This document shows, piece after piece, positions 6,370 through 62,063 of a DNA stretch of 64,000 nucleotides. A program made the position numbers and the translations under genes. The DNA comes from Tubulanus polymorphus. Taxonomy: Eukaryota; Nemertea; Palaeonemertea; Tubulaniformes; Tubulanidae. The notes below the pieces were generated by a model that saw nothing but the letters and a program-made list of their open reading frames with translations, was not told the origin of the DNA and did no database searches. The stretch spans positions 4,252,501 through 4,316,500 of the forward strand of contig NC_134028.1 in NCBI RefSeq assembly GCF_964204645.1, given 5' to 3'. Each line of letters begins with the position of its first letter. Within the stretch, counting starts at the first letter, position 1.

Positions 6370-6441
6370 TCCTCGGTAGTATAGTGGTGAGTATCCGCGC
6401 CTGTCACGTGCGAGACCCGGGTTCGATTCCCGGCCGGGGAG
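6370..6441 (+). tRNA. tRNA-Asp (anticodon GTC)
   Basis: The 72-base sequence folds as a standard cloverleaf. The 7-bp acceptor stem TCCTCGG pairs with CCGGGGA (one G-U), with discriminator G at 6441. The internal promoter A box lies in the GTAGTATAGTGGTGAGTA segment and the B box GGTTCGATTCC is perfect. The anticodon loop reads CTGTCAC, giving GTC (Asp). There is no intron. A T-rich Pol III terminator (ttttt) follows within about 10 bases. It closely matches the animal nuclear tRNA-Asp consensus, so it is probably functional. It stands alone, with no tRNA cluster visible nearby. Confidence 0.97.
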
Positions 6442-27937: not shown

Positions 27938-30900
27938 TCATGGCACAGCGGCAGGTCCGAGCCTGGATCCGTAAAGCGAATACGGCGAATAATAAGCACC
28001 AACGCCCATCGGTAAAGTGGGAGCTCCTGGCGCACCAGTTAATGAAGCCAGTCCTGATTTGTACGGATGATAACGACTAGCAGAAAGAGCGCTGCTGAGC
28101 GGGCTCAGACTGGTCGGATATCGATGCAAGGCGCTCGGACTGATCGAACCCGCGGCTGAACTGAAATGCGGGTAAGTTCCGAGTGAACTGATCGCCGATG
28201 GTAAACTATACGACGGTAGCACGCTGGATAACGAAGTGACACACCCTTCACTCGATGTATGCGTGCGCAGATGGTGCAATAAGTCTTCGGACGTGGTAAA
28301 ACGTTTACCGCAATGTTCCGTACCGGACATCCAGTTACAGACGTACGGTAGTCCGGGTCCGTGATGTGCAGGTGATGGTATCACACTATGTGGATAAATA
28401 GAACAACCGAGAGAGTTTAATCCTGTCGCTGATAGCGTAGATCCGGGTAGTGGTAAAATAGGCATACCCGGTGCACTTCCGGGCATTTTATCATGAGTGC
28501 ACTGTGTGCATCCAGCACCACAAGTCGTAGAAAGTTGCGCACTGCGCATTGTCAGTTGGCAGTTTGTACAATATGGGTCCCTACAAATTGGCACCAAAGT
28601 CGTAGCACCAGTGGCAGTTTTTACTTGAGCATATGCGACGTACGGCGAAACCCCAGCATTGAGACCCGGCAACTCGCCCGGTTTCAACATATTTAGTCCG
28701 GCGTGGGCGGCCAATGCCGATGCATAGGCACTTTGCATACTAGCATCGAGGGATAGAGGATGTCCGAGTAGATGTGGATCGGTCATATAGCTACCTAGAC
28801 TCGATATTGACGATGTACTTGAAGATGTAGAAACCGGTGTTGGTTTTAATGTAGCGCCTGGTAACGGCTGGTGTTGACTAGTAGTAGGTGGTAGCCCTGA
28901 TTTGGGTAGATTCGCGGTGGCAGATTCGTTATGTTTGACCTCCAGGACGACGTTTCCGCAACTCAGGCTGATGTGACTGTTGCTTTGAGCGCCTGCGGAC
29001 GGAGCTATAGTGCTGTTACTACTACTGACTGAACCGGAAGCTGACGTAACCGGATCTGACGACAGTGGCGATCCACGGGATGTCAGTGGACTAGACCGTT
29101 TATCTGATGACGTCACTGATACCAATGGCGGCGGTACATCTTTAGTCGGCGTTTTTCTGGATTTCTCGTCTTTCTTCTCGGCCGATGAGATTCGTTTGTT
29201 GTCAACATCGTGACCGCCAGATTTCGGCGAAGATTGGCGCCCGTCTTTCTTATCGATGGGTGGTATGATCGGTTTCGGCGGAGATGTGTCTTTCCCGATG
29301 TTGCTGCACGTCTGAGCGAGCAAAGCCAACGGACTCTTCTTTGCGTCGAGCTGAAAAATACAATAAGACAAGTACGATAAATATGATGAATATTTGTGTG
29401 ATTAGTTAGAAAACGAGTTTCCATGACGCCCGCAGATGTTTCGTATCGAAGTATGAATGCGATGTTTTTGTTTCGCATGTTTTAAAACTTGATGATGAGG
29501 GATCGTAGTCGGAGAGATCGTTGCAGCTCGTAGCGAGCGTGTCGGCTGCGGCGGTATCGATCAAATGCGGGAGCCATCGGGTACAATACCATCAACGTGA
29601 AATAATGATGGACATAAAAACGACGCATCGTAAATAAACGAAGCGGGCGGCGGCACAAATCAAACGATTTCAACACACATTAACCGTCTGACCGTTGTGT
29701 ATATTGTAAAACGAATAGATATTAAAATTGTTCGAGCATGCGTACGAATGCTTTTACGGATGAGGATTTAGCAATAATGAACTAATCGTAATTTTTAAAG
29801 GCCATAAACAACAACAGCAAACGAACTCGCACACCCGCATGTTGTTTCACCGGCGCCGCAGAAAACGCGCACACGTATATCGTTATTTCGTTACACTCTT
29901 CAATAAACAACCCCCATAAAATTCACGCCGAGCGGAGATCTTAAGCTTTTAATGTCAGCCTATTAATAATCAAAATGACATTTTGCGTCAATTTGCCGAT
30001 AGAATATTTTTCGTCGACGCTTCGATCGTATAAAACATCGCCGACAATAGCAGCTAAAATGTCCCATGTTATTTCTGTTACAATTTGCGAGAGCGCGCTC
30101 TACAGCGCTATAAAATAAAACTAACGACTTTAATTCGCATGCTACACGCCAATTTCGAGTAAAATATCGCTCGAAATTCGCTATTAACCTGTCAGTGCTT
30201 TAACCCGGCATAAATCAACTTTATTGTAACGCGTTGTTATAAATCAAAAACGCTTTGGGATATTCGTTCATTAGCGTCACTCGACTAGCAAATCCGGACC
30301 GAAAAATATGATGAATTTTATGCAGCTTAAATCAACGACAGAACCTCATAAATCCTAAGCCTATGTTTCGGGATAATATGTATAAATACGGATTTGCATA
30401 GATCGGTAGTAGGGATTTATGTTACGAAAAATTTTCAAATGGCAAAACAACTATTGTACCACTGCTGATTTTTATGTAAAATACATGATTTTATTTCTAT
30501 TTTCAAAAATACGAATCATTTCCATGTAAAGTGTTCAACTTTTTTCCTCAACATGTCGACGATGTCGGTTTTATGTATGAACGATGATGTTTGGGTTAAA
30601 TATACAATACATCACGTCACAGTTTTTATCTAGGCAGTAATTTAAATTTTATAGCTATCAGGCCAATGTGTCATTGATACGAGCGAAAATAAAAACCATC
30701 TAATGGCGCATAAATAACCGACTGACATCGGGAAGTGAATTTTCCCAGAGTCGACTACTAGTTGAAAGATACAGTTTTACTTCCCACCAGATTTATGGCC
30801 CTCGTAAACGTCTCCACATTGAACGCGTTGGCGATCGCGCGGCAAAGAACCGCCTATGCGTAACCGAATATTTTATGTCCAAAAAATCAATCGGCAGTCG

Positions 30901-39993: not shown

Positions 39994-42900
39994 TTATGTT
40001 TTCTTGTTGTCTTTGTGCAATTTACCCTGAAAATAGAGAACAATAATCATCAACATTCAATACTCAAGACTTTGTTGAGATTTAACTTTGAATCAGAGTG
40101 TAAGCGTCTAAGACTTTGGGAGCGTTCATAAATTACGTATCTCCATTGGGGGGAGGGGTTGTTACTGAATTTTGGTACAAAGTGGTACATGGGGGAGGGG
40201 GGTCAGCAAAAAAGGTACGTACTTTGAGGGAGGGGGGTATCAATCAATCTTGGTACGTACTTTATGTACCAAACTCAAATGAAAATAGCCGTTGGTGTTT
40301 TATCGGCTTTTAGTACCGGGTATATAAAATCAATAAACAAAAATACTTGCTTAATTCTTTTGTGACATCATAAATGAAATCAGGTATTTATATTTTTTTT
40401 TATTTGTGTTCTTTGCATCGATATAATTGGGGGGGGGGGGTGGTCATGGGTGCGATGGTACATACCTCAGAGGGGGGTCAGTGAATTTGGTACAAAGGTG
40501 GTACAAGGGGGAGGGGGTCAGAAAAACGGGAGATTTTGAGGTACGTAATTTGTGAACGCTCCCTTTTGAAATCTTACCGATGCAGATTGTTGCAATGTTC
40601 CATCGATGAACATATCAGGAATGTTATTACCGAAGTAGACTTTACTATTAGCAGCAATAGCTTGATATTTCAACATCTGTAGATATTCTGGGGTCAATTT
40701 TATCTGAAATTAGACATTAGTTTCATACAAACCTCGAAAATATCATTGCTGCATTGAGAATTCCCTCAGGATGGCAGCTTGCCGGAATTACCTTGTTAGA
40801 CTGGGCTTCCTTTTCTGCTCTATAAAAATCTGCTTCTGTTTTCGCTTTCATCTTGGCCAATAAAGTAAGATCTGAAACATCGCAAGATTACGCAATTTAT
40901 CAAACTCCTCCTTTGAAACTACTTCACTTAATCAGAGTTCATTATTTAGCATACCTTCTATTTCAGATATTTTTTTTTCTGATTCTTTCTCCATGATCTT
41001 TTGAGACCACTGAATTTTTGAGACAGCAGCATTTTTTTCAGCCTCTGAGAACAGAACATAACATAAAATTTGTTTAAACCAGCCAGCTGAAATACGGGTA
41101 GAAAATGTTAATTTCTTCAGGAATCTCAGGTACCTATAAGTGCTTTCTTTCTATCAGTTTCAGCTTCTTTTTCTATGACTTTTTGTTTTTGAATTGATAT
41201 CAGTAGTTTTGTCTTTTCGCCTTCCCTATAAGTGACACACAGAACCATGTATATATACCATGTCCATCAACTAATGAAGTCATTTAATTCATTCAACATA
41301 ATTACAGTCAACCCATCGGAGGGTTGACTGTACTAATGTATATTCACATACTTACATCAATTCATAGTTTTTACGAATAGTTTCTGGAATTTTAGGTTTA
41401 GTTACTCGCACAGCTTGAATCAACAACCCGGGAGCCATCATGTTTAAGTCTGCTTGTAAAGCTTTCTTTAGATTTTCATCAATTTGGTCTGAAATTGAAC
41501 AAGATGCATGTAATGAAATCATAAATTAGTGAAGAATCATGATGACCCAATTTCAGTGGACTAATTAACAGCTAATTGAGTGAGAAATCAACGTTGATGT
41601 TTGATCATCTATCAATCTTTTGACTAATTACTCAATTGTTAATTAGTCATAATTGATGAGTCTTCTCTGCGATGTCGCTCGATGTAAAATGTCACCAAAC
41701 CTATATAAACCCTCGAAAAATATCGGACAATCATCAAAATTCATTTTGATTCTCAAATGAACACCAGCATGGATTACGAAACAGCCGTCAAGAGATTCTT
41801 CGAGACCGAACGTCGATTCAACGAAGCTTGTAAAACAATCGTCAACATCGATCAGAAACTGAGTCGACTCGACGTACAGTTCAAACGCCTGAAACACAGC
41901 GGTCTACGTTCCTGTTACCTGAGTCGCAAAATACAGATCTCGACCCTCGAAGGCGTGCGATACGTTTATTTCCAATACGCGAACCAGAAAGCCGAAGAAA
42001 TGAACGAACTACGAAGAATCTGCGAACGCGAAGAAGAGATGATCATTGGAGCTGAATTAGAACTTATCGACGTCGAATGATGGAAGATCGTGGAAAACTA
42101 TATACTATCATCGGTCCAAAAGTGTGGACCCTTAAATCTCCCAGGAAGACCTAGTCTTAAACTCATTATGCAAAATCCAACCTCATACAGTCAAACTCAT
42201 ATGATCTGGCACATTGTACTGTCACTTTCGCATTACTGTAAATAGTATGTTTCGTAAATGAGAAAGTTTTTAGGGCATAATTCCAAGATGGTAGGTATTT
42301 ACTAAACGTAGGTTACAGGGGCAACTTCTGACCGAAGTACCAAGGGCTCCATTCCTAAACCGTCACAGTCCTACATAAGCCTTCTGGGGTATACTTTACT
42401 CATGTTATTCTGACAAATGGCATAAATCAGATAAAGAAGCAGGCACTCGCGAGAGACTATAGATTTATCTTACCGAATAGATCGATGTAGACCTCTTGTA
42501 AACTATGAATACTACAGAATTGATTCAGTTCATGATGTATCTTGTTATAAATCAGAGTTTTGTCGTAATCGGCGGTGAAATTCTTCACAATGTCATATAC
42601 TGAAAAACCAAAAAAACATTCATTTAATGAAGCGATAAGAAAAAGGACTTAAAGTATCATGAAAAAGTTTAATTGAACCCAGTGAGTAGTGGAAACCATT
42701 CAAACAAAATCTGGTAGAATGTAGAGTTATGGTAGAATACACTGTTTTGAGTGTTGAATCAAGTAGCTTTAAAAGCTGGGTTTTAGCAGGGTTTCATAAA
42801 TGAGGTTTTTAGTCATATCTACTATCTACAAACCAGCAGTTTCATGCAGTATGTTCACTACTTCAATACGTTCAAGGAAAATCGTCACACCACCACTGAA

Positions 42901-44853
42901 TAGACAAAAACACAACAGCCATCTACGTATTAGGGTGCAAATAAAATATCTGTGCAATTTTTGCAGAGCACTGAACTACGTAAAAATAGGAGCCCTCGAC
43001 ATTTTGTAAGGATTTAAGAACATTTCTGAAAGATGCGTTCTTCAATGTTGTACTTAGAGCTTTTTGAAAGCAGAAAGTGCACATGGATACAAGATTCCGA
43101 AACGCAAAGGAGTTATAGCAATAATAACACAACTACCATAGGGAAAGGAATTGCCATTTTCCCAAATTTGGCCCCGATGCTTCCGTTTCAGAACTTGTCA
43201 TATGGATATGGAAGTTAGCAAAGCAACATGTAAAACCAGCTGCATAAGGGAGCATTCATAAATTACGTACCTCCATTAGGGGGGAGGGGGGTTACTGAAT
43301 TTTGGTACAAAGTGGTACATGGGGGGTGGGGGGGGGATGTGTCAGCAAAAAAGGTACGTACTTTGAGGGAGGGGGGTATTAATCAATCTTGGTACGTACT
43401 TTATGTTCCAAACTCAAATGAAAATAGCCGTTGGTGTTTTATCGGCTTTTAGTACCGGGTATAAAAAATCAATAAACAACAATACTTGCTTAATTCTTTT
43501 GTTACATCATTAATGAAATCAGGTATTTATATTTTTTTTGATTTGTGTTCTTTGCATCAATATAATTGATCATAGGTGCGATGGTACGTACCTAAGAGGG
43601 GGTCAGTGAATTTGGTACAAAGGTAGTACAAGGGGGGAGGGGGGTCAGAAAAACGGGAGATTTTGAGGTACGTAATTTGTGAACGCTCCCTAATAACGAC
43701 AATTCTACGTTGGTGTATTTATTTCAGCGTACATGTCGCTGGTGTGCAGCGGGCTTAACTCAGACTAACGAACAACATGCTATAAATGAATAGAAAGGAG
43801 GCATTTTAAACGACCCCTTTCAGATACACACCACTGGCAGGACTTAATAAATTAACAACTTCAATACGATCAATGTAGATAACGACTCCTCCGCTGTTAA
43901 TAGTAATAAATTAATGAAAATATCATTAAAAACTCCATGAATTCAGGATGTACAGTTAACTCTTGGTTATCCGCCGCTGATGGGACCGATATCTTGTTAG
44001 TGGATAATTGAGGCCGGTGGACAACTGGACTCAGTTCCACAGTTGGATACTGAACATGATTTTAATTGACAATGAACTACATTTTTGATAGCAGGGTTTA
44101 AGAATTTCTGTGGACAACCAAGGATGGCCGATAATCAAAGGTTGACTATTTTTGATGTTAAGATATTCAAGAAGATTTAACCTGCTTATTCATTTTTCAG
44201 AGATCTGAAGTTTTTGCTAATCGAAGTCTAAGAACGATTTTCTTTATACTCACCTTGTGCCGCAAGGCACATTTTTCACTTCGTCAGTTTGTAAGGTAGT
44301 CTGAAAATAGCAGCAAAGTAATCAAGAAATGACTGTTACACCGATATCAATCTCATTATTTCAGAGTTAATGAGCAAAACCCACAGTAGTTGATATTTTG
44401 AATTACTGTGTATCATTATCATGTTATTTTCGTTTCCCTGATGATGAAGTTTAGTCAAAAACTTCATAACTATCAGGAAAAACTGTTCAACGACTTTTTG
44501 AAAAATAAAGAAATGAATAATCAGAAATACACCGTTGGCGAGATGGAGTAAATTGATACGAACCTGCACCGAACGAAAAGTTGTTAATACTGGAAACATA
44601 ATGTGGAAACCGGGACCTGTCGTCGTTCTTAGTAACGCTCCACCCTGAAAAATAATTCAGTTACTCCGCGTTAAGTTTCGTGATAAGGGGTAAGATTACT
44701 CAAAGCTGGGCTTTTCGTCATTTCACATAAAGACAATCCTACCCGATAGTAAACTCCGACATGTCCTTCTTCAATTTTATGCAAAGAGAAATTGAGAAAT
44801 AAGGCGGCCAAACCAATCGCTACAGCGAGTACAGTACCTACAGCCGCCGGCAT
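39994..44853 (-). CDS. erlin (ER lipid-raft-associated SPFH-domain protein)
   Basis: Coding exons on the minus strand: 44853-44743, 44644-44564, 44300-44254, one of 43893-43832 or 42895-42834, 42599-42474, 41488-41356, 41225-41134, 41044-40955, 40871-40792, 40703-40578 and 40026-39994. All have GT-AG ends and matching phases; the product is 326 aa, near human erlin-2 (about 339). An N-terminal hydrophobic signal anchor (residues about 3-21) precedes [13 protein letters not shown] and GGALL...GPGFHIM, the start of the SPFH/prohibitin domain. [19 protein letters not shown] and HHELNQFCS follow, all diagnostic. The second half is a Lys/Glu-rich coiled coil that ends in a [23 protein letters not shown] segment and a short Lys-rich tail. 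Erlins form ring-like complexes on the ER lumenal face, bind cholesterol-rich domains and deliver IP3 receptors to ER-associated degradation. The gene is head-to-head with the PP1 gene. Unusual: duplicated fourth exon, tandem start acceptors, MITEs in introns and a nested gene. Confidence 0.96.
40118..40563. mobile_element. MITE, copy 1 (about 446 bp), in the last erlin intron
   Basis: It begins GGGAGCGTTCATAAATTACG and ends with the near-perfect complement (CGTAATTTGTGAACGCTCCC). The flanking bases are TTT on both sides, consistent with a 3-bp target duplication. The interior has repeated GGGGGAGGGGGG tracts separated by 'ttggtacaaagtggtaca' and no coding capacity. Copy 2 at 43248-43690 is very similar along its whole length. 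The element ends 14 bases from the donor of erlin exon 10. Confidence 0.88.
40579..40702 (-). other. coding exon 10 of erlin (inside the gene model)
   Basis: This span lies within the exon 40703-40578, which encodes the conserved [11 protein letters not shown] and [10 protein letters not shown] segment that follows the coiled coil. The donor gtaaga and acceptor tttcag are strong. It is listed because this segment is the most diagnostic C-terminal block for assigning the gene to erlins and not to stomatin or prohibitin. Confidence 0.9.
41303..41332. repeat. 12-bp perfect palindrome with transposon-end sequence
   Basis: TACAGTCAACCC, six bases, then GGGTTGACTGTA, in the short erlin intron 41226-41355. 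The arm resembles the ends of the element at 43951-44150 (TACAGTTAAC...). It looks like two transposon ends with the interior lost. Confidence 0.7.
41702..41708 (+). promoter_or_regulatory. TATA box of the nested gene
   Basis: TATATAA, 55 bases before the ATG. An initiator-like TCATCA at 41731-41736 lies about 30 bases downstream, the standard TATA-to-start distance. The predicted 5' untranslated region is about 25 bases. Confidence 0.7.
41757..42080 (+). CDS. small intronless helical protein nested in an erlin intron; family not recognised
   Basis: A 107-residue frame that starts at the first ATG after a TATA box and initiator and ends at TGA 42080. It lies wholly in the erlin intron 41489-42473, on the opposite strand. 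Third codon positions are clearly richer in G and C than the AT-rich intron around it, and synonymous-type usage (CGA, CTC, GAA, AAC, TAC) looks coding. The protein is rich in Glu, Arg, Lys and Leu, with almost no Pro or Gly. It is predicted to be mostly helical, in two blocks: residues about 5-50 ([12 protein letters not shown]...[16 protein letters not shown]) and 66-100 ([20 protein letters not shown]). No signal peptide or membrane segment. There is no intron, and a short 3' stem-loop (GGTCC/GGACC at about 42114-42131) lies downstream. A short TATA-driven intronless gene suggests fast inducible expression, but function is unknown. Confidence 0.75.
   Translation: MNTSMDYETAVKRFFETERRFNEACKTIVNIDQKLSRLDVQFKRLKHSGLRSCYLSRKIQISTLEGVRYVYFQYANQKAEEMNELRRICEREEEMIIGAELELIDVE
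42834..42895 (-). CDS. erlin alternative exon 4b (mutually exclusive with 4a)
   Basis: 62 nt with acceptor tctattcag and donor gtttgt. Enters at phase 2 and leaves at phase 1, exactly like exon 4a. It encodes [20 protein letters not shown], completing a Ser codon with exon 3 and a Val codon with exon 5. RIEVVN is identical to 4a at protein level while codons differ mainly at third positions, so selection has acted on the protein. Used alone it gives an intact erlin frame. It is the more divergent of the two from what I recall of vertebrate erlins. Confidence 0.85.
43248..43690. mobile_element. MITE, copy 2 (about 443 bp), between erlin exons 4a and 4b
   Basis: Same family as 40118-40563, with ends GGGAGCATTCATAAATTACG and CGTAATTTGTGAACGCTCCC. 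The flanks are TAA on both sides, consistent with a 3-bp target duplication. Internal G-tracts and 'tagtaccgggtata' are shared with copy 1. It fills nearly half of the 936-bp intron between the two alternative exons. Confidence 0.88.
43832..43893 (-). CDS. erlin alternative exon 4a
   Basis: 62 nt with acceptor ctattaacag and donor gtgtgt (a nearby gtggtg is out of phase). It encodes [20 protein letters not shown] and completes the same split Ser and Val codons as exon 4b. This version matches the vertebrate erlin segment more closely (I-Y-x-D-R-I-E-V-V-N). In the linear gene model it is taken as the default exon. Confidence 0.88.
43951..44150. mobile_element. short inverted-repeat element filling erlin intron 3
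   Basis: The left end ACAGTTAACTCTTGGTTATC and the right end, on the other strand TAGTCAACCTTTGATTATCG, are imperfect inverted repeats. Ends of this kind (CAGTYAACCNTTGRTTATC) are typical of pogo/Tigger-like Tc1-mariner relatives; this assignment is from memory. No transposase frame. It occupies most of the 360-bp intron 43894-44253. Confidence 0.6.
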
Positions 44854-45288: not shown

Positions 45289-46826
45289 GCCGGTGAATCT
45301 ATTGCCATTGGCTAAAACCTAACTGAATTTTATTTTTGATCGGAGATGACACAGATTTCTTTGTGCGTGGCGTCGGTTTTTTATTGTATTATTATTCGTT
45401 GACGTTGTTGAATGATGATCGCCATTAGTATAATACTAGATAAATCGTTTACAAACCTATAAAATATCAACGAAAGCTAAAAATCACTAAAGCTGACGAA
45501 TTATTTAGAACGCGGAAGTCAATTCCGGACTATCTGTGGAGCCACCCGCCGCCGATTCGTATTCGATCGGGTGCATCATGATAAATAAAATACAAAGTTG
45601 ACCAATACGGATAATTCCGTACGGACTCGTACGGATAATCCCGAAGGCTATTCGTACGGAACGGCGTATATTGACTTACGGACAACATAAAACTCATATT
45701 AAACTATTCGGGTCTCAGATGTTCGTACTTTGAATAAAATAATTGAATTTGGCGTTGAAAACGTTACTGTGGCAATGGACGATTCCTCACTTCCCTTCGG
45801 TACGCGAACCAGTCTCACTTAATCGCTTCCCTGTGCATAATTCGGAGTGCGGAGCAGTCCGATACTCGCTTTAGATGCCGCAATCATCTAATAAACTAAT
45901 TGAGCTACTGAATCACGAATTAATGAAGCATCATTTTAATCCACCTTCTCCCAGACTCTGGCACTCATTCGAATTTGATGATATTTAAAGATGATTATGA
46001 TAGCTGACTTTGAAATGTTACCGTGAGACCGAAAACCCTAAGCAAATGCCAACGATAATGGAGCCCTGGTTGTTGTAGAATATGTGTTATCATAATGCCC
46101 CAATAATTTTCCTTTCATTCTGATATCTCAGTCGTAATATCGACGTGAAGTCGCATTTTTTCTTAAATGGGTACGGTATCGATTTTTCAGACACGTCGAA
46201 TGTGTATGTACACGGCGACAATCTGTTACTGACGACAGCACCATCGGATGTCATACAAATATCTGATAATACTATGCCATATTGATAAACCTTGACAATT
46301 AGTTGAGAAGAGTTTTATAGCGGGTATATAGTCCATTCAGCTAGTGAGCCATCGTTTAGTGCGAATATAGTCGCTTACATTGTCGTGACTGTTGCCACAG
46401 TTACTTGCAGCATCAACCAGTACACTAATGTTCCCCCAATCGACTCGAGTATTACGCGCTGTGTTTGGTTTATTGCATGCATACTGGTCATTGTCGTGAA
46501 ACCCGCCCACACGTTTTTCGGGCAGGATGTTCCTGTAGCTGTGCGAAAAGTCTAGCGATGCCGAAATACCGACAGCAAACGGAAATCATTTCAGTGTAGC
46601 TGGTAGAATGTGGAATCGTTACCCATAACTGTTATCAGGAAGCTTGACGAAACTCTAAAATGGAATATGTTGTTTCCTGAGGAATTCGACGGAAAGGCTT
46701 CGAAATCAGACGCATTCGACTAATTGACATGTATCTTGATTCATTCACGAGAAGTCTTATTTAAAACGTTGCGTGCACTATACCGTATTGGATTAGCGAA
46801 CTTAGGTAGTATAACAGTAAGGCGCT

Positions 46827-49800
46827 ATGTCACGTAAAGTAGAATTCGACGTTAATGCCGTTATTGAACAGCTTCTCTCAGTCAGGGATAATCCTGGAAA
46901 ACAGGTAAAACATATCGATTCCATAAAGAGAAAGTATTTCTTTTTTTCTAAATTGGTCGCTTCATTTTCGTTTAATTCAGTTGAATAGCAAAAACTACGC
47001 AAAAAACAATGCACACAGTTTTCAGTTGATGTAGATCGGCACTTTTCTCACCCACTGCTCAGACCAGAACAAATTTCGAAAGTTGAATCTATTGATGGGA
47101 CTTTAAAAAAATCTAATAAATTATACCGTGAAACATAGTTGATTTATGCGTAGATAAATTTACAGGACATTATTAAAGAGGCAATCAGGCAGATAAACTG
47201 CCTCATATTTCAGTCTGTTTAAATCAAACCCACAGAAGTGAATCCGCAGTTTTGATTACACACAGCTCGAGATAATTTCATCTTCTCCACTGAAATGAAA
47301 GATGATGTGAACTTGACAGTTAATAAATGATACGGCGGGGATGAGGCTTGCCACAAAAACAATGCAGCGCTTCTATTCCCGAAGGGAATTTCAATTTAGA
47401 ATCTGTCATAGTTGACATTCATCACCCTATACATTAATCACTCACAATCTTACCAACCAAAATATGTAAAGACATTATTGTTGTCCTTATCGTGAAACAG
47501 ATTGTCGTTAAGGAGGTCGGTTAGAATTAAGGCATGTAATATTGCTCTGGCAGGATGATCCGGAGTGGGTTTCGTAGAGGAAAGCTATTAAACTGATTTC
47601 ACTCTCCGAGAAAGGGGATCAGTACTATGGGAACTATCGACCAGTAACTACTGAACGTTTTCATCTGGACGAATTTTTTGGTTGTTGCCGTGTTTTAAGC
47701 CGCGACAATATTGATAAATTGACCGGTGCCGATTGACAAATAGTCAAACCGATTCGATAATGTTAGAACGTCATCAGACTAATGCGAAAAGATTACCAGT
47801 CACTCGCAATGGGATTAGTTCTGCCTTAATATATGTCATTTTTATTCATGACCTTTCTCTGTTTTATGAGAAGTCATCTAAACTGTCGGGAGCCCTTAAA
47901 CCCATGAGGAGCTCACTCTCATCGCACTCTCATCGGTTTTCCAGTTTCCATCAGGTTTTGGAGTTGAGCTTTTTTTCATTCACAGTCGTAGAACCGGGTT
48001 CCAAATGGCGATTTCCCCTAAAATTTTTGAAATCTACGTATTATAGCTTGAAGTGTATTTCGTCTTTGAAACAGCTATTGTTTCCCATTTCTATACACAC
48101 TTCTTTTAAGAAATAGTGAATTCGAAATTGAATTTTGGGAATTTGAAGTATCGGACATCGGGTTTGTTTATTTCTAAGGCAATCACTTTACAACTCACTA
48201 GTACGAGTATATATTTCGCTTAGTGTTGTTACTGGTTTATTGTATGGAACCGGTCGAAGTATTAGGTAATACCTAAACTCCCATACATCATAGTTACTGC
48301 ATCCCAGCCGATTGCGGAATTGGGTATCATTTCCTAGTAGAGTAAGCCAATTTGCTGCCGACATTTTCCAGTTGGTGTACATCTATTAATTAATAAAAGC
48401 CAGGATATCATTATGCTGCTGTGACTAATAAGAGTTTACAGTAAGCACTGAGTCTTGCTCATGAGGTCTTCGTGAGTTCAAGATTTTTTGCACCTATCAG
48501 GAATAGCGCCAACCATTTTCTACCTCAGGGTATATGATACTTTTATGTACCGTACCGTATTACGGAAACCAGGAAATGCTACTCTTAACAGATGGCAATT
48601 TTTGCTGGATTCACCACTTCAAGGGTTTCTAGTTGTGACATATGGGTGTTGCCTTTTCGAAATCATAATGCTTACAATGCATTATGTATGATCTGCATGT
48701 TGGGCGTATATAGATTAAATCTACGTTTTACCCTCGTTTAGTTGAAAAATCTCCCCTTATGAAATATTCTAGTCTAAATGTATTTGCTGAAATGTTTGAG
48801 TTACCGCGTGCGTTGGATGAATATTTGGTTAAACGTTTGCCTTTGACAGCTGGCGGAGTGTCAATTATGAACATCCAGCTATAGTGCCCGTAGGATAGGA
48901 ATTAGGCGTGTAACCTACGAAATGAATTCTGAGAAATTTCATATTAATAAAATCTGGCGAGTTGATGAAAATGTCACGCTCATCTAAAACTTGAGCGGAT
49001 GATATCGTTTTATTCGGTGTCTAGTTCCTGTTCTGTTCTACGGACCTCTATATAGTCAAACCCTTCAGAGCTATAGTGTGGTGATGCAGTACTGTAATTA
49101 TTTATCGCTGTGGACGAAAACATTTGCGAACGCATTACCTCTTGTGTTTGTCAACGTTAAGCAAACAATCTCTATTAAGAACAAACTCTTGTCCGATGAA
49201 TAATTAAAATCAAATCTACGTCCGTATATATTATATGTACAATGGAGGATAGGGTTGAATGTATTGATGGTGTCTGCATTTACCCAAGTATCCGATACCA
49301 AAATTTGTGCGCAGCACCCCAAAGACCATTTAAATAGTCTTATTACACATTAGTTGTGCATGCATGCGTCAAAGCTTTTTCGAAGGAGAATTCGGGAAAC
49401 TAATGAAGTTCCGCTCAGACATGTAACGAAATTATCGCCAGCCATTCGTCGATGCATACTACATGCAATCGTGACAATCCTGAATGCGTAACACTGTACC
49501 ACGACATTTCCCGTTCCCCAGCCAGTTCTGTGTGAAAAGATAGCTTTATTTCAATGATTTCGTTAATTGAATCCGGTCTGAAAACACCAGTGACGCTAAA
49601 CTTGTATTTGTAAAGACTATGGGTGGATGATGAGGGATTTAACGTAAACGGGTAGTTGCTCCACTCGTGACGAGAACATATCTAAAAGAATGCCGGTTTG
49701 CAGTCATCAGCTTTGTTATATCGAGTTAACATTCTATATATTTTACCATAATCTCCATCAATTTTCACGGTACTTGTTTGACCTAATGAAGCCATGATGT

Positions 49801-52800
49801 AATCCTTTGATAAATGCGCGTGTTCTTCGCGCTAAATTGATATCTTAGATACCGCTAAATACCATAATACTCGGGTACATCCTTTTATTGCGGATTTTCT
49901 GATCTTTTATTAGGTACAACTACCCGAAATGCAGATACGTCAGTTATGTCAGCTATCACGGGCGATTTTCTTGGAACAGCCAAATCTCATCGAATTAGAA
50001 GCCCCTGTAAATATCTGTGGGGACATACACGGCCAGTATGAAGACTTATTGCGACATTTCGATAAGTGTGGGTACCCGCCTGAGGCAAACTATCTCTTTC
50101 TGGGAGATTACGTGGATAGGTGAGTTATTAACGTCATTCTCAGCAGGAGAATTCACTTTTCGCTCACCAAAATAAGCTATTTGCTAAAGTGAAATTGAAA
50201 TCTTGATCATAGTCTGCGCATGCATATACGAATACGTATGTAAGTGGATAGACATTATTTCCAGAAGTATATTTGCCATTCTTTACATACATAATCAAAA
50301 TGAATTGACGAAAGCATGAAAAATGCCATGAAAACAACCGCCTTCTTCCGATTCGTATATCTCGCATATGAAGCAGGCTTGAATGAAAAGAGAACTGATA
50401 AAGAAAAAGTCTTCGCATAAAGCTAGTACGATGTTATCAATTCGCTAGGCGATCCCACGAGGTATTCAGCTATAGCGGCAACATAATTAATACTTCATGG
50501 TTGTCATACGTAGTAATTAAACTACAGGCATCCTCAGTATGAGTTGTGATATATCCGTGAATCGCATTCATCTATCATTAATTACGACGATATCGATTCG
50601 CTTCCGATTATTCATACATATCATCGACTAAAAAAATATCTCATTGATCAGTGTCAATACTATATAGAAATACGTACGTGTATCTTATGTACATACGTCG
50701 GTAAATCGTAGAGATGACCTGCGATATACCGTATGTTAGATGGCAGAATCCGAACATATGCTACAGCGATGTTTACATCGTGAAAACAATTTGAATAATA
50801 TAAACTCCTAAAGAGATAATGTAATCTTGCTAAAGTTATACAATATCTTCCAAAGATAAAACATTGAAAAAACGGGTATTTTGAACGGATTCATTCCTGG
50901 TAATATATCTACTAAAATGAAATTGTTGCTGTTCATTTTTCTTTCCAGAGGTAAACGTTCGCTGGAAACGATATGTCTAGTTCTAGCGTACAAGATTAAG
51001 TATCCAAATAATTTCTTTCTGTTGAGAGGAAACCATGAATGTGCCAGTATCAACAGGTACGTAAATTATTGCCCGTTGCACTAAAAAACCGCTTGATCGA
51101 TTTATTACTCGAGTTTGGGAGCAGACGTTATTATGTATAATTAATTGATTACGATATTTTTCTGTGTTCATTTGTTCTTCTGGTTTTCGAGTCAGGATGC
51201 GATGTGAAAATATATAAAATAGGTTCTGTACCCTTCATAAACATGAATCTGTAAACGATATAATGATCCATGTTTTATATCACAATGGGGGTATATTATG
51301 AGATGATACAGAGTCCTGTCACAGCCAGCGGCAGAAGCGATTGCTCCGTTGCCCTATTGGTTTAAAGCCGCTTCGTCAGTTCTGGTATTGACATTGCAGA
51401 TGATAATTATCCGCCTGAGAGTCGATGGTGTATACGTATGAAATTTGAGTGGCAAAGGAAACGTATATTACTATTTCTGAGGTATCATTATGATTTCCGG
51501 CAAATGAGCGACAACCACTTCAGATATACATACACATATGACGTCATCGGAAATTAGAGCACGGAGTTAAACCATGGACACTGCGACAAGATTAGTGTTA
51601 CAGTTATATGCTCTTTTTTATCATTTATGTACAGGTGACATTGCCATTTTTGACTTTGCGACCAACTTCCGCCAATTGCATTATATAAAACGGTGACAGA
51701 TCTATGAAATTACCCATAATCAACTTCTTTCATTTCCTTGACACTTTTCTTTTTCTTCCTGGTGGTAATTAAGAAATGAATTGTGGAAATGAAGCTTCGT
51801 ACTGTTTATAACTGATATTCACATCGATTCACTCTTCTTTCAAGCCACAGTGTGTTGAACAACTGCATTTAAATGATAAACTGTAGTTTTGAGCTCAAGG
51901 AGAAACATGAACGTTTTCTTGGCCGCCGGTCGATTAAGAATGTGTACTCGAGTTGACAAATGAACCCACAATTGATGATATGTAAATTATTGTTCTAAAG
52001 TTCATCATCATCATTGACGGATCTTTAGAAGGCTTTTGATCCGTTTCGATGTCTCACTTAGTGTTGCCGTACGGCAGTATCCCAGCTTTCGCGTTTGGAA
52101 ATTGGCATTTAATCTTAGTAATATTCGCATTGAAGAACAAAATATCGTTGTTCTAAGATACTTGATTAAATTTATCACAGTATTTGTGTGAATCAACGTA
52201 AGATAATTTTTCCAAACACTCATGATTTGCAGGCACATTTTCGAAAATGAATCTATGATCGATAGGTTTATTTGTCAATATGAATGTGTTTTTTTTTCAT
52301 AAGACGCCTTATAGTGCAACTCTGTGCAGTTCCCGTCTGCTGGGTGAAAGCTCTCCTCGTGAATAAATCTATTCAACGTGCAACGAAATAAGTATAGATT
52401 CTGTTCTTATTCTGTCAGATATTCGCACGGATAATTATGGGAATTAGCGCATAATTTGATATAGTTGCGAATTCTTACGGTGTGACACGTTGTATAGCGT
52501 TTGATGACATGCTAACGTCGTCGTAGTCTAGGAGTCTTGTTTCACTGAAATATCAACTCGTATCATCGTGTAATCCGACGACTGTTACGGCGTAATCTAG
52601 ATTACAAGCAACTAACTTCGATGGGAAAATCAACTATCCATGCACCATACATCGTCACATCATATCCCGCGGTAATATGAAGAATAATGATTTGTTAGAC
52701 TTCAAGTCGGAGACAGTATACATACACGTCCCTGTGAGGGGTGTTCGTGGGTAGCGAATTAAGTCATAATTTCCATTGGAAGGATGTCTATTATTAGCAT

Positions 52801-55800
52801 GCTCGGATACAAGATACAGAAATTCTAAGCCCCGTCCCTCTCGGGATAAGCCGTGATCGGCGAAGTTTTGATGAATTCCCACTTTTTCAATTCATTTCGT
52901 CTAATAATACTGAATTATGTGGGAAACTTGCCATGTGGTCGTGACAACTAAACACAGATGCAATGTAATTTTTCGATCAATTTCGATCGATGTAGCAACT
53001 TACAATGCGGAAAGTGTTGCAGCTATTGCAGACGATAGCTCCTCGGTCAAGGGTCTACATTTGATTAATTCAATGAATATCTTCATTAGGCTTACTGAAT
53101 ACAGTCTGATTTACAGTTTGCGTCGGGTTCAAGTCTGTGTGGAAAGTGTTTAGTAATTCATGTACACACGCCACGCAATTGAAATACTAGAAATCTAGAA
53201 AATTATTGCGTTTAAAGCCGTCGATTGAATCGAGTGTTTCCATGAAAGGGAAAGAAGTATCCACGCAGAGTGACTACAACGCAAAACCAAATCGGGGGAG
53301 GGGTTCACCAAGAACTTTAGTGTCTAATGTACCACGGTGGGTACACAAAATCGTAGAGCAACGTAGATCACTGCGGAGACAACCACTGCCAGGGCTGGGT
53401 GAAGAGAGGGGTAACTCGAGTGATAATGGTAATCAAAACGAAGAATATTGTCTAAAATGAAATAATCAAAAGAGCTCGGGAAACTCGTCCTCCTCGTGGA
53501 TCAACCCCTATAACAATAACGAGTTTGCGATATCTATATTTACAGAATCTACGGATTTTATGACGAGTGCAAAAGACGATATAACATTAAACTGTGGAAA
53601 ACATTCACAGATTGTTTCAACTGTTTACCAATAGGTGAGTTATTGACGTCATTCAATCTAATATGAAAAAAACTTCTTTTGTTCTCGGCAATAAATGGAT
53701 ATCTAGTGCTATCATCAGCCTGTAGATGTGATGAAAATATAATTCATTTGATTATCCAATCTGCCACGATGATGTACCTAACTATCGTCAGCTCTCACTA
53801 GATTTATCTACTTTCTAATATCGATAACATTCATGTGTCATATTCAATAAGTCATATTCAATAAGTAAAATCCAATGTAAGTTATTTGATGCTTTGAGTT
53901 TATTCTACTTCTCGCTCTCTCGTTCTCGCTCCGTCTCTCAATATTTCGTCGCACTTCTGCCAGTTGTGCGCGGTATGAAATTAACCCATAAACACGCAAT
54001 CAAAGTCTTATCGGCTGTGATTGTTTGGAATCTCTCCTGCTCGATCAAATAGGTTTGAACTGAGATCGTAAATTTCGCCGTCTCACTAATCGCCTATCGC
54101 CGTCAAAGTCCCATCGAAGTCCGAATTATTTCTTTCTGAATTGAATTTTCGCTTCGATCGTCCTTCTGGAGCATTTTTTTCGGATGAAAACTGTATACGT
54201 GAAGAACTCCTACTGCGGAAGCTATTTTCACCTTATTAACATTATCCGCATTATGCATACGACAACTTTGCGTCACCACTAGTTGTGGTGACACTCTGTG
54301 GCGCTGTAGGGTATGTGTGATATTTTGATTGAGTTACTTACACTTAACCTCATTCTATTGTTTCAGCTGCATTGATCGAGGGAACGATATTCTGCATGCA
54401 CGGAGGCCTTTCACCGGAGCTTAATGACTTAGATCAGGTGAGAGGGACGCGAGTCCTTACAAAGCTCGGAATAATCTGAAATGTCACGTCGAGGAAATAT
54501 GAACTTCATGTAATAATCCTATTGCTTCTCAAAACGGAGAAGGGAAATGATTAAGAACTTAAGCCGCAATCACACGAGAGTTTTAAACCCGGGCTAATTT
54601 TGGCCCGTGCCAGATTAGGCCAAACTTAAGCCGCAATCACACGAGAGTTTTAGGCTCGGGCTTATTGGCCCGTGCCAGATTAGGCCCAAGCTAACCGTTC
54701 ACACTGGTGCAAAATTGGTCGATGCTTGACACCGGCCAAATTTGGTTCTGGAAACGACCCATCTCGCGTTACCACAGAGTCGTAGCATCGAGTGAGTGAT
54801 TTACACGTGACCGCTTTATCGTCACCGTGTGATCACGTTCATCCCGGAAGTATTCAAATGGCCTAGGCCAATCCTTCTCTGAAAAAAAATGATCATAGCA
54901 TGTTTGATTGTAATATGGTTTTCATATCATGTTATCTGAGATACCATCTTCGCCAGGATTTTGCCCTACATCAACTGTCGGTCTATAGAAAATGTAAATC
55001 TCAGAATATCATTGACGGGAAGTAGAGATTGCCACGAACGCCGTTGATTACTGTTTGTACTTTCCTCTGGGTTTGAGAGCTATGCAAACTTCCCCTTGAC
55101 GCTTATATGCATGGGCGATGCCTTGGTGAGAGATTTCATCTGCGAGGATTTAAAACATCACATCTATCGCGATGCTATATGAAGACCATCTCGAAAGACT
55201 ACCTTAATTAGAAATATGTGAAAATGAATCGAAATTGTTGCTGTTGTTTGCAAGACTTAGCTTGTATCTGTTTTTCAGACCAGGCGACACTCATTTTGTT
55301 TCTTTCGATTCTTTTTATTGCAGTTGCGAGAAATCGAAAGGCCGATGGATGTTCCCGATAATGGATTAGTTTGTGATCTACTATGGTCTGATCCTGATGA
55401 GGTAAGGTTTACTCTCGACCATGTCAATATACAAACGATATAGAAGCGAGCCCTCGGAATGAGGATTCTGATGGAAGTTTTATTTGATTGCTCTACTCTC
55501 ACTAATCAGAAGATTGATGATAAAATAAAGGCAATAAAATGTCATTTATCACCTTCTAACAAGCGCAATATCATAAAATGCATTACATTTTGTGTTTCAT
55601 AATGATCTAAAATCTAATCGTTGTATTGAATACAGAAAAGCTCTTAATACATGTGGAGTCAACCCCTGATAAACCGCCACCTCGTCCATAACGCCAGGCT
55701 TTTTTTCTGAGGACTGTTTACGTACCTTGGAACTACTCCAAATTAAGCCCGATATACCGCTATATCCTATACTCTATATACATCACCGATGTGAGGTCGG

Positions 55801-56897
55801 GTTATTGGGGATTTATCGTTTAATACTATGTTGAAGTTGATGATATTTCAGGATATAACGGGTTGGGGTGAGAATGATCGTGGTGTGTCCTATACATTCG
55901 GCGGTGACGTTGTCCGCCATTTTCTGAAGAAGCAAGATTGCAGTTTGATAGTAAGAGCGCATCAGGTATGTGTCAGAAGAAATTGAAGAAAATCGCGATA
56001 TCAATCTTAAGATATACCGTGGGGGCGAGATGCACAGTCGTGACTTACGTTAGTCCGAAAGTGGTCTTAAATCATCAGACTGGTCGGGGGTCTTAAGTTG
56101 TTAGATTAGGCATGGACGTAGTCTTAGCCTGGTCTTAAATCTAAGCCACGACCGTGGAACAGGTCCCTTGGTTTTACGATGTTCTATAAGCTTGACATAG
56201 GAGTATTATGTGAAAAGTGCGAGTGACATATATGTAGACATCGTGAAGTCTAGGAGTTCTTCGACGGCAATATTGATCGGGTGGTTTATTTGTATTCATA
56301 GAATTTCTCTCGCTGATCAAATTGAGATTGCCTTCTAGACACGAAGTCTTATCGCCAAAATATCCGATTTCACGCAATGAATTGCGTATTTTCCATTTCC
56401 GAATTTGACATTTTGTTTTGACGTAATTCGTTGCTCATATCCTTTTCATTTGATAACATACAGGTTGTTGAAGATGGATACCAGTTCTTTCAGAAACGAA
56501 AGGTATAAAAATCGCTGCTTCAAATAAACTGCGCATTTATATATCTGTTTCCATCCCGCATTTTGATTTGCGTAAGCCACTATTTGGTTGAGGACCAATT
56601 ACTGTTACGGATGTCATCAAAGCCAGGTTTATTTTTTATTTCAGCTTGTAACACTGTTCAGTGCGCCGAATTATTGCGGTGAATTCGACAACGCAGCTGC
56701 CGTCATGATAGTCTCTGAAGATCTCACATGTTCGTTCAAAATACTGCCCGTAAGTAATAGAGATCGAAAACCACGTATTTAGTACGTACTTAATTCAGTG
56801 TGGCATGCTTATGTAAATACGATATCATCTCTAATTCTCTTTCTAGCCGGAAAAAGGGAAGATTATATCACTCGATTCGAAAAATAGTAAAAAATGA
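46827..56897 (+). CDS. divergent PP1-type serine/threonine protein phosphatase catalytic subunit
   Basis: Ten coding exons: 46827-46904, 49914-50119, 50949-51056, 53546-53634, 54367-54437, 55324-55401, 55852-55965, 56464-56502, 56645-56749 and 56847-56897. All have GT-AG ends and phases agree; 312 aa. Metal and catalytic residues are all present, one residue earlier than in human PP1-alpha: D63/H65 (GDIHGQ), D91 (GDYVDRG), N123/H124 (GNHE), H172 (HGG), RAHQ and [11 protein letters not shown]. So the enzyme should be an active two-metal phosphatase. Compared with canonical PP1 (about 330 aa) the N-terminus is altered and the segment after FCMHGG is divergent ([20 protein letters not shown]). 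The C-terminal tail is shortened to a Lys/Ser-rich end, without the TPPR site phosphorylated by CDK in PP1. It is probably a lineage-specific or tissue-specific paralogue acting with RVxF-type partners. The start is the first ATG of a short exon that carries the PP1-like helix [11 protein letters not shown]. Confidence 0.95.
46905..49913 (+). other. first intron of the PP1 gene
   Basis: A 3-kb intron with donor gtaaaa and acceptor ttttattag. No nested gene or clear repeat was recognised. Confidence 0.8.
51057..53545 (+). other. third intron of the PP1 gene
   Basis: Donor gtacgt, acceptor atttacag. It contains an 84-codon open frame (53206-53460) that lacks similarity and suitable splice sites, so it is treated as chance. 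Confidence 0.75.
54556..54690. repeat. two-copy tandem repeat, period 67
   Basis: 'aacttaagccgcaatcacac' starts at 54556 and again at 54623. Each unit ends with 'cccgtgccagattaggcc'. It lies in the PP1 intron 54438-55323 and is probably part of a transposon remnant. Confidence 0.75.
56035..56161. mobile_element. MITE-like element, second copy of the 9520-9640 family
   Basis: Ends (ACAGTCGTGACTTACG and, on the other strand, CCACGGTCGTGGCTTAGA) are imperfect inverted repeats. The interior matches the 9.5-kb copy in reverse orientation. It lies in the PP1 intron 55966-56463. Confidence 0.7.
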
Positions 56898-58793: not shown

Positions 58794-60621
58794 CTACAGA
58801 ACTGCGACCCCTTCGTGATTCAGAAGCCACTTTTTAACGAGATTTCTTCGGCCCCCGCAATATTCTCCTAATTGTCCGGTTTGACGGATGACGCGATGAC
58901 ACGGAATTATCAACTGAATCGGATTCATTTTCAGGGTGTGTCCGACTGCGCGAGCCGTGTTTACGTTTCCACACATCGTCGCTAATTGTCCGTACGACAC
59001 GATCCGAGCGAAGCTGATCTCGTCGGCTAAAATTCGCCAGACTTTCTCCGTGAACGAACCTAAAAAAGGAAACCGTAAATTCTAATTATTTCTCACAGAG
59101 TTTTTCAGATCAGGGAATCTGAAATTCGCTGATATTTCTCCGACCAAAATTTATTGCGCTGTTTCTGTGCGAGGTTCCTTGGGGATCATTCATTTATTAC
59201 GTACGCATGAAATTTGACTTTTTCTACCCCCTCCTCCCTGTACGCAAAATCGGCCATTTTTCCATACACATTAAGCATTACAGTACGCAATTGCACTTAC
59301 CCCTCCCCCTCCCCTAATGTGTAAGTAATAAATGAATGATCGCCTAGCAGTCAGCAATAACGACGAGACACCGAAAATTCAAATTGATTGCTCGACTATT
59401 TAAGAACCGACCAAATATAAACTGCTGCTTTATTTGCCCGTCAATTACAGCATTGCGTCTTGCTGGACCAGTGGTAACAGTGCATTAAAAAATCTAGGTA
59501 AATGTACAGCATTGATTAGGTTCGTTCCAAACTGATCCATTTCGGGTTCGGGCCAAATTAGAATGGACAGCGACGGTGTGCAGACATTGTATGGAAGTTT
59601 TCTAGTTGCGTTTTAAGGTGTAAATTAACTTACCTTTCTTGGTGTGAACGAAGCAGATATTTGGACGAGTTTGAGCAGGAGCTTCAGTTTTATTATGGAA
59701 GTACGTATTAAGCCATTGAATACACATCAACACTGATTTATACACATATCCGTTGTCTTGATAAAGCTGCGATTTTAAACTGACTTCAATACTGAAAATA
59801 CATTTTCATGAAAATTGTAGTTTATCAGTTAATTGGTTGCTAACACTGTCCTCATTTGCCAGAGTTTGATTGCCTCCCGCCAAAGCTCACAACAAAACCC
59901 TTGCCACAAACCCTTCATTGCTCAAGATTTCTAGGGAGGACAGGTTGCCGCTAAGCAGCCACCAGAGTATGCATTAAGCCAATCAGATGCACTGTTTTTC
60001 ACCGGCAGAATTGCTACGCATCTGATTGGCTAGTTAGTCACCTAATCGTTGGCGGTAAGCTTTTTATAATCGGATGGGCATTTATTACTGATATAATATG
60101 ATTTCAATGGTTAAAATCGATATGGAATAAATAAATATGTTATATTTAATTTCATCTCGGTTGATCTCGGTTCATCTCGGTAAAATAAATCATCTCGGTA
60201 ATAAGGATGACCGTATACGTGTGGTTTGTGAAAATATCCGATTGTGAAACTAAACCACAGACAGGTTACTGACTACTGATTGGCTAGATACATAGACTGG
60301 TGGCTGCTTAGCAGTAACCTGTCCGCCCAAGAAATCTCGGTCAACATAAAAGTCCATTGAAGGGTTAAGGCCAGAGTTTATGTTGCTGCGAACTTCGGCG
60401 CAAGAGACAATCAAACCCTGGCAAGCGAGGATGGTTTCGTTACCGACTTACCTCATGTCAACTTTAAAAGTCGAATCATCGATCTCTTGTACTTGCTGCA
60501 GAGAATGAATCCCTTTAGGACATGTTTCCAGATCCATGTCACCGATAGGTGTGCGTAACACGTACGTATTCGTCGGCCCATGGTGACAAGCAATCGGCCG
60601 TTTCCTGCGTGCTGTTGACAT
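58794..60621 (-). CDS. MGMT: methylated-DNA-protein-cysteine methyltransferase (O6-alkylguanine-DNA alkyltransferase)
   Basis: Three coding exons on the minus strand: 60621-60452, 59791-59634 and 59059-58794, phases 2 and 1, giving 197 aa (human about 207). The enzyme transfers the alkyl group from O6-alkylguanine to its own cysteine in a suicide reaction in the nucleus. The active site is IIPCHRV with Cys163 as acceptor. ARAVG carries the Arg finger (R146) that flips the base, and SYGQLA begins the DNA-binding helix-turn-helix. The N-domain keeps probable zinc ligands seen in vertebrate MGMT: Cys12, Cys34 and His39 (TCPKGIH), and a His near 106. A stop codon (TAG) lies three codons upstream of the chosen ATG, which supports it. 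Intron 1 (59792-60451) is almost filled by a foldback element, and intron 2 contains a small MITE. The C-terminus ends soon after WLLNHEG, without the long disordered tail of mammalian MGMT. Confidence 0.96.
59181..59343. mobile_element. small MITE in MGMT intron 2, similar ends to the 40.1/43.2 kb family
   Basis: The left end GATCATTCATTTATTACGTA and the right end TAAGTAATAAATGAATGATC are inverted repeats. The interior is C-rich ('cccctcctccct', 'cccctccccctcccc'), the complement of the G-tracts in the two larger elements. The shared plan (TTCATAAATTACGT-like ends plus poly-purine tracts) suggests a related family. Confidence 0.65.
59849..60431. mobile_element. foldback element with long inverted repeats in MGMT intron 1
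   Basis: Left arm (59849-60030) and right arm (about 60270-60431) are inverted copies of about 150 bases. Both contain 'ggacaggtt', 'gctaagcagccacca', 'gccagrgtttgattg' and 'gccaatcag' in the same order when read inward. The centre is AT-rich with four 'tctcggt' words near 60160-60200. No protein is encoded. The arms have diverged, so the insertion is not recent. Confidence 0.75.
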
Positions 60622-61335: not shown

Positions 61336-61341
61336 TTTATT
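61336..61341 (-). terminator. poly(A) signal overlapping the dispanin stop codon
   Basis: The minus strand reads TCT GAA TAA A: the AATAAA hexamer includes the stop codon TAA (61339-61337). If used, the 3' untranslated region would be only about 20 bases. Confidence 0.5.
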
Positions 61342-62063
61342 CAGAGGAAGCCGCGATCGATCCTATAAATGACGCCACTCCAACTAAGATTATTACGTAG
61401 TAAATAATTACAGCAAGCACAATAACGACACCAAGCACGATTCCTGCAATGCCCAAACCCTTCACTGTCTTACTCTTATTCTGGGCATCATGATATTGGC
61501 CAGTGCGCCACAATTCGTCAATCTGAAAGAAATAAATTCACCACATTTGAAACAATGCTGCTATCATCGCGGAGTTTAGTTGAATCGGGGTTGTCGGAAA
61601 TTTCGGAAAATCGGTATTTTGCAAAATGCACAATGTCTTTCTTACCTGGAGTGAAAAAATAAGCGCTGGTATGCCAAGTGGTGCAAAGAAAATCAAAGCG
61701 AATACAGCTAAAACCAAATGATTACTCGGTTTATTAATGACTTGGGCTTCCACTGCCGGAGGCTGCATTACGACCGGTGGTACTTGATGTTGTTGCTGGC
61801 CTTCCATTTTCTTGGTCTGGTCTAAATAAAGAAAAAGAGCATGATTCGTAATGTATAATGCGATTGTGACACAATATCAGTAATATATGTAAGAAGATGA
61901 AATTTACTTGTAGCAGCAATAAACTCTTCGACCACACCGTCAGCGTTCAAAACGTCTTTTGGCACGTGGTGGTTGGTTTCTATGGTATTCGTTAAAACAA
62001 AACGGTTGTCCTCGTGATGCCTCGCCGTGTATCCACTGGATACAACTTTATTGTTAATGTCTT
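61337..62063 (-). CDS. CD225/dispanin-family two-transmembrane protein (5' end incomplete)
   Basis: Exons on the minus strand: 62063-61908 (possible upstream coding exon), 61821-61646 and 61522-61337. The last two form the recognised part: from the in-frame ATG at 61807 a Gln/Pro/Val-rich cytoplasmic tail (MEGQQQHQVPPVVMQPP) leads into the CD225 domain. Helix 1 is NHLVLAVFALIFFAPLGIPALIFS and the intracellular loop ELWRTGQYHDAQNKSKTVK has the GD/GA..A-type spacing. Helix 2 is LGIAGIVLGVVIVLAVIIYYV. Dispanins include IFITMs, PRRT and TUSC5-like proteins that shape vesicle membranes and fusion. This one has no Cys beside helix 1, so the usual palmitoylation site is absent. The frame stays open upstream through exon 62063-61908 with compatible phases (1 in, 1 out), so a longer N-terminus is possible. 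If the protein starts at 61807 it has about 115 residues. Confidence 0.85.

Follow-up and report, generated by a model that had tools for sequence, protein, structure and literature searches.

The erlin gene of Tubulanus polymorphus contains two versions of one SPFH-domain exon in tandem, which raises the question of whether one gene supplies two erlin proteins through an exclusive choice between these exons. We analysed a window of 64,000 nucleotides from contig NC_134028.1, to which all positions given here refer. The evidence suggested, with a probability of roughly 0.8, that exons 4a and 4b arose by an old tandem duplication within the sole erlin gene and are used as mutually exclusive alternatives. 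From the DNA, we infer that both exons are spliced in RNA and that their choice would be regulated by tissue or condition.

The erlin locus and gene model

A complete erlin of 326 aa is encoded on the minus strand (44853-39994, exons joined with either 4a or 4b), with AG/GT borders at every intron. The coding sequence starts with the ATG at 44853 in exon 1 (44743-44853), which encodes the transmembrane segment and the residues HKIEEGH, and proceeds through exon 2 (44564-44644; 81 nt) to exon 3 (44254-44300; 47 nt), which ends in phase 2 at a strong donor (AAG/gtgagt). Beyond the exon 4 pair, exon 5 (42474-42599; 126 nt, VYDIVKNFT...) is entered in phase 1 and is followed on the same strand by exons 6 (41356-41488), 7 (41134-41225), 8 (40955-41044), 9 (40792-40871), and 10 (40578-40703), the last of which carries the C-terminal motif. 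The coding sequence ends with TAA in exon 11 (39994-40026).

A phmmer search matched residues 3-311 to the human ERLIN1 and ERLIN2 chains of solved structures (E = 2e-152 and 1e-148, respectively), and the identity to each human protein was 82% over 197 residues. The protein with 4a matched Pfam Band_7 at 102.2 bits. Features of the erlin family were found throughout, namely full-length similarity, the transmembrane segment, the SPFH1 and SPFH2 subdomains, the coiled coil, an IPNMF-like C-terminal motif (NIPDMF), and an N-glycosylation sequon (NFT). The T. polymorphus genome has one erlin locus only; a search of the 268-Mb assembly detected neither a second locus nor a retrocopy, within the limits set by its gaps, and a Band_7 search of the genome returned other SPFH genes as fragments only, with no second erlin. 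No erlin homologue was confirmed in prokaryotic and viral contigs, in which tolerated residues were sought.

Structure and reading frame of the exon pair

Exon 4a (43832-43893, minus strand) encodes residues 80-100, the first being the Ser of a split codon, and is separated by an intron of 936 nt (42896-43831), with a dispersed repeat copy inside, from its alternative, exon 4b (42834-42895, minus strand). The first-pass annotation had placed both exons exactly, including their length of 62 nt, their entry in phase 2 and exit in phase 1, and their AG/GT borders. It had also called the splice sites good, which held for the canonical GT/AG dinucleotides of both exons and for the pyrimidine-rich acceptor of 4b, but not for the 4b donor (CTG/gtttgt), which is weak.

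Joining the exons bore out the proposed frame logic, in which double inclusion and double skipping each lead to an early stop. Inclusion of 4a or 4b alone gave the full length of 326 aa. With both exons included, the product was 103 aa long (...LLSPASVVV), with a stop at codon 104 (GTG GTG GTG TGA), and with both skipped it was 81 aa long (...CGTSI), with a stop at codon 82 (AGT ATA TGA). The two full-length isoforms share all but nine of their 326 residues, and these nine lie in one short segment of SPFH2.

At 11 of the 20 full codons, 4a and 4b specify the same residue, as originally counted, and the Ser of the split codon is also common to both. With this Ser included, 12 of 21 residues are identical, nine of them written with a different codon. 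The earlier statement that RIEVVN is written in different codons applies to VVN, whereas the codons for R, I, and E are the same in both exons.

The exons are adjacent and internal, of equal length and the same phases, and have compatible splice sites; their peptides are homologous and free of in-frame stops. Length, phase, splice-site compatibility, and homology are the features from which mutually exclusive exons were predicted in a published study, in which constitutive or cassette exons mimicked them in only 0.35% of fly X-chromosome genes (PMC3228551). The tandem pair is real, locked by frame, and under coding constraint, and, as far as sequence can indicate, the gene very probably yields two full-length isoforms through the choice between them.

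Origin and age of the duplication

When both 20-aa peptides were compared with the window translated in six frames (BLOSUM62, ungapped), the two exons scored 96 and 98 and the next best match 34. Neither a third exon 4 nor a second copy of any other erlin exon was found in the window. When the 4a peptide alone was the query, 4b scored 60, against 34 for the next match in the window, which argues against a chance resemblance.

Between 4a and 4b, pS was 0.80 and pN 0.29 (Nei-Gojobori, 21 codons), and synonymous sites were saturated. Comparison of the introns flanking 4a and 4b detected no homology above that of shuffled sequence, and the duplication is therefore old; this fits an exon pair that persisted while the surrounding introns diverged. 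Synonymous saturation and unrelated flanks together exclude collapsed haplotypes and a recent assembly duplication, so that an explanation of the pair by assembly artefact or chance resemblance is extremely improbable. Exon 4b is no closer to 4a (12/21) than to ERLIN1 or ERLIN2 (13/21), an equidistance that fits either an old duplication or a faster-evolving 4b.

Coding constraint on exon 4b

Among the 20 full codons, 14 specify one and the same residue in human ERLIN1, human ERLIN2, and 4a, and six are variable. The nine replacements in 4b fall on all six variable positions and on three of the 14 conserved ones (hypergeometric p = 0.002), the latter being Y to F, D to E, and P to E. The final residue of the segment, A in the human proteins, is matched by 4b but not by 4a. 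Identity to the human proteins over the 21 residues was 16/21 (ERLIN1) and 15/21 (ERLIN2) for 4a, and 13/21 in each case for 4b. The Band_7 score was hardly altered by the swap (99.0 bits with 4b vs 102.2 with 4a). The claim that both exons have been kept as protein thus appears to hold, as pS exceeds pN and the replacements follow the sites that vary in the family (p = 0.002), on a comparison that comprises 21 codons and in which a recent loss of constraint would look alike.

Such a loss is the substance of one alternative, in which 4b lost its use only recently and survives as a relic, silent or spliced as decaying noise. Its weak donor and its departure from three residues common to 4a and both human erlins would fit this history, as would three-point arithmetic, which assigned about 5.8 changes to the 4b branch and about 3.3 to the 4a branch. 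A few recent neutral changes are also compatible with the data; for up to about 10 of them in 4b, the chance of an open, similar exon was still 0.7-0.8. However, the frame, length, and RIEVVN stretch of 4b are intact, as are its two splice dinucleotides. Two of its three changes at conserved sites are conservative, and the donor of the constitutive exon 7 is equally weak. It is unlikely that 4b has drifted freely since it was duplicated: when its drift was simulated at 0.75 substitutions per site, an open frame with at least 12 shared residues was left with P = 0.004; at 0.5 substitutions per site, P was 0.06. Taken with this evidence, a relic appears unlikely, and 4b seems to have been maintained as a coding exon.

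Possible mechanisms of exclusive choice

With 62 nt (3n+2) in each exon, inclusion of both or neither would lead to an early stop. Stops far upstream of exon junctions trigger nonsense-mediated decay under the general exon-junction rule, and the mRNAs with both exons or neither, in which the stop lies well upstream of many exon junctions, should be removed in this way. Exclusivity based on frame would need only the survival of single-exon mRNAs. The reading frame combined with nonsense-mediated decay, which we infer, is the best-supported mechanism of exclusion.

The same early stops from both wrong outcomes would also suit a switch between productive and unproductive mRNAs, in which single inclusion as opposed to double inclusion or skipping sets the erlin level through decay and the two proteins are equivalent. 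Nonsense-mediated decay is recognised as contributing to the exclusivity of pairs whose length is not a multiple of three, FGFR2 IIIb/IIIc being the cited example (PMC6071210). A poison exon, however, need not stay erlin-like, whereas the replacements in 4b follow the tolerance of the family, and we regard such a switch as very unlikely.

For the preferred reading, two protein-coding alternatives, splicing regulators could make the initial choice by acting on the two donors, both of which are weak. Rated on a simple consensus scale built from textbook frequencies, the donors scored 8.3 (exon 3), 2.6 (4a), -0.2 (4b), and -0.4 (constitutive exon 7). The weak donors of 4a and 4b, as compared with the strong donor of exon 3, would permit a regulated choice. 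Exons 2 and 7 also have weak donors though constitutive, and a weak donor alone is therefore not evidence of regulation.

Other known types of exclusion were also considered. Steric exclusion does not apply, as the intron of 936 nt is too long. A distant branch point was dismissed because an AG precedes the 4b acceptor by about 25 nt and there is no long AG-free zone. Incompatibility of U2 and U12 sites was rejected because all donors read as U2 type, and none matches the U12 donor consensus, such as GTATCCTT. A search for docking/selector RNA pairing among the three introns detected no duplex beyond those of shuffled sequences, either globally or in 40-nt windows, and hence no active selector mechanism, in what is a weak test on a single genome. 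One Fox-type GCATG motif was present in the intervening intron and none in the flanking introns, which is uninformative.

Predicted consequences for the protein

By alignment, residue n here corresponds to n+1 in ERLIN1 and to n-1 in ERLIN2. V93, inside the invariant RIEVVN of exon 4, therefore corresponds to the disease-linked V94 of ERLIN1, which cryo-EM places in the SPFH2 subdomain, in the packing of its hydrophobic core (PMC12624060). The changed residues had been described as lying early in the SPFH domain, but exon 4 maps to SPFH2 rather than to the early, lipid-facing part.

In human erlins, a putative phospholipid density was located at Y36/R38 (ERLIN1) and the beta4-beta5 loop of SPFH1 (PMC12624060), and the modelled contacts of RNF170 and TMUB1 involve ERLIN residues 36-51 (PMC11116810). 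The numbered residues of these lipid and RNF170/TMUB1 contacts fall in exons 1-2 here. The suggestion of the first-pass annotation that the isoforms make different lipid contacts is unsupported because the mapped contact residues lie in exons 1-2, with exon 4 away from the mapped contacts to lipid head groups. Altered docking of lipid or of the E3 ligase was rejected on the same ground.

In prohibitin, a related complex, the adjacent subunit is contacted by strand beta7 of SPFH2 and by the beta6-beta7 loop. Exon 4 probably covers the strand equivalent to this contact strand, and a modest effect on subunit packing is therefore the most plausible consequence; by this analogy, a small change in oligomer contacts is possible upon the 4a/4b swap. 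The likely effect would be a conservative retuning of SPFH2 packing or of the subunit interface. Homomeric or mixed rings would then differ subtly, which is the least certain step of the proposal.

Comparison with known systems

Mutually exclusive tandem exons are rare, and are usually old and functional. Exons IIIb and IIIc of FGFR2 resemble erlin 4a and 4b in being two homologous alternatives of one domain segment, and differ in that the segment is the ligand-binding part of a vertebrate receptor, with a known tissue switch. Nonsense-mediated decay of mRNAs containing both exons is the cited mechanism for FGFR2 (PMC6071210). Exons 4a and 4b of OGDH are likewise an ancient duplication of two exons that together do not add up to a multiple of three nucleotides, with a swap within one domain; exclusion there, as in tropomyosin, is of the distant branch point type (PMC7969005). 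The OGDH exons of birds and mammals have distant branch points and an intron of 118-131 nt (PMC7969005), whereas the erlin intron is 936 nt long, contains a dispersed repeat, and has an AG about 25 nt before the 4b acceptor. SNAP25 5a/5b and the 236 tandem duplicated exon substitutions of human are similar to the erlin pair in being old, with mostly conservative changes, and the human survey found enrichment in ion channels, muscle, and nerve (PMC9741552). SPFH proteins and erlin do not occur in the main text of that survey.

The first-pass annotation knew of no described mutually exclusive pair in erlin genes, and none appeared in the full text of 5.39 million open papers, which does not prove absence. 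No report of mutually exclusive tandem exons in other SPFH genes was found in the open full text either. The type of alternative splicing is already known, and the erlin case is an instance for which no earlier report was found.

Human ERLIN1 and ERLIN2 are similar to the 4a and 4b isoforms in being two closely similar subunits, and the positions at which they differ in the exon 4 segment are among those at which 4a and 4b differ. In human, however, two genes encode proteins that differ throughout their length, C-terminal tails included, whereas here one gene varies in one exon. The C-terminal tails, the most distinctive part of the human paralogues, are identical in the 4a and 4b proteins. 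Human erlin rings have 26 subunits and were modelled as alternating ERLIN1 and ERLIN2, and each paralogue alone also forms higher-order complexes (PMC12624060); PDB entry 9wff contains 26 Erlin-2 chains. It is a doubtful but conceivable extension that, with just one erlin gene in the genome, the 4a/4b choice supplies two subunit types and so mixed or switchable SPFH rings of the endoplasmic reticulum (ER). If so, a heteromeric SPFH scaffold would arise by splicing rather than by duplication of the gene. The pair is also a natural experiment on the need of erlin rings for two types of subunit. If both exons are used, a short segment of SPFH2 that holds the position of the human disease-linked ERLIN1 V94 would be a tunable part of the ER scaffold with which erlins organise IP3-receptor degradation and cholesterol handling.

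Neighbourhood of the erlin gene

The dispersed repeat is present in two minus-strand copies of about 445 bp that are 90% identical, one in the intron between 4a and 4b (about 43690-43245) and one in intron 10 (40560-40115). The repeat has terminal inverted repeats (GGGAGCGTTCA...TGAACGCTCCC) and looks like a MITE, and about 50 further matches, some partial, were found genome-wide. Intron 5 contains, on the opposite strand, an open frame of 107 aa (41758-42080, plus strand), which a TATA-like box (ctatataaa) precedes by about 50 nt; this frame, a possible nested single-exon gene, had no Pfam match above the cut-off.

Head to head with the erlin promoter, a divergent series of exons (46823-56782, plus strand) resembles the catalytic subunit of a PP1-type protein phosphatase (FLGDYVDR). 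Farther along, an open frame at 58794-59081 (minus strand) has an apparent signature (IPCHRV) of MGMT (O6-methylguanine methyltransferase), and fragments at 61538-61876 and 61337-61537 (minus strand) resemble a dispanin/CD225-type protein with two transmembrane segments (KPSNHLVLAVFALIFFAPLGIPALIFSLQV). The only Rfam match in the window was a tRNA gene (6370-6441, plus strand).

On the same strand as erlin, a large zinc-finger open frame (27938-29371, minus strand) matched only a C2H2 finger and resembles the NET-family proteins (NocA/Nlz/Elbow/TLP-1; ZNF703/ZNF503). The proximity of this frame to erlin may represent ancient microsynteny with the human ERLIN2 locus, given that ERLIN2 lies near ZNF703 in tetrapods (PMC5144077).
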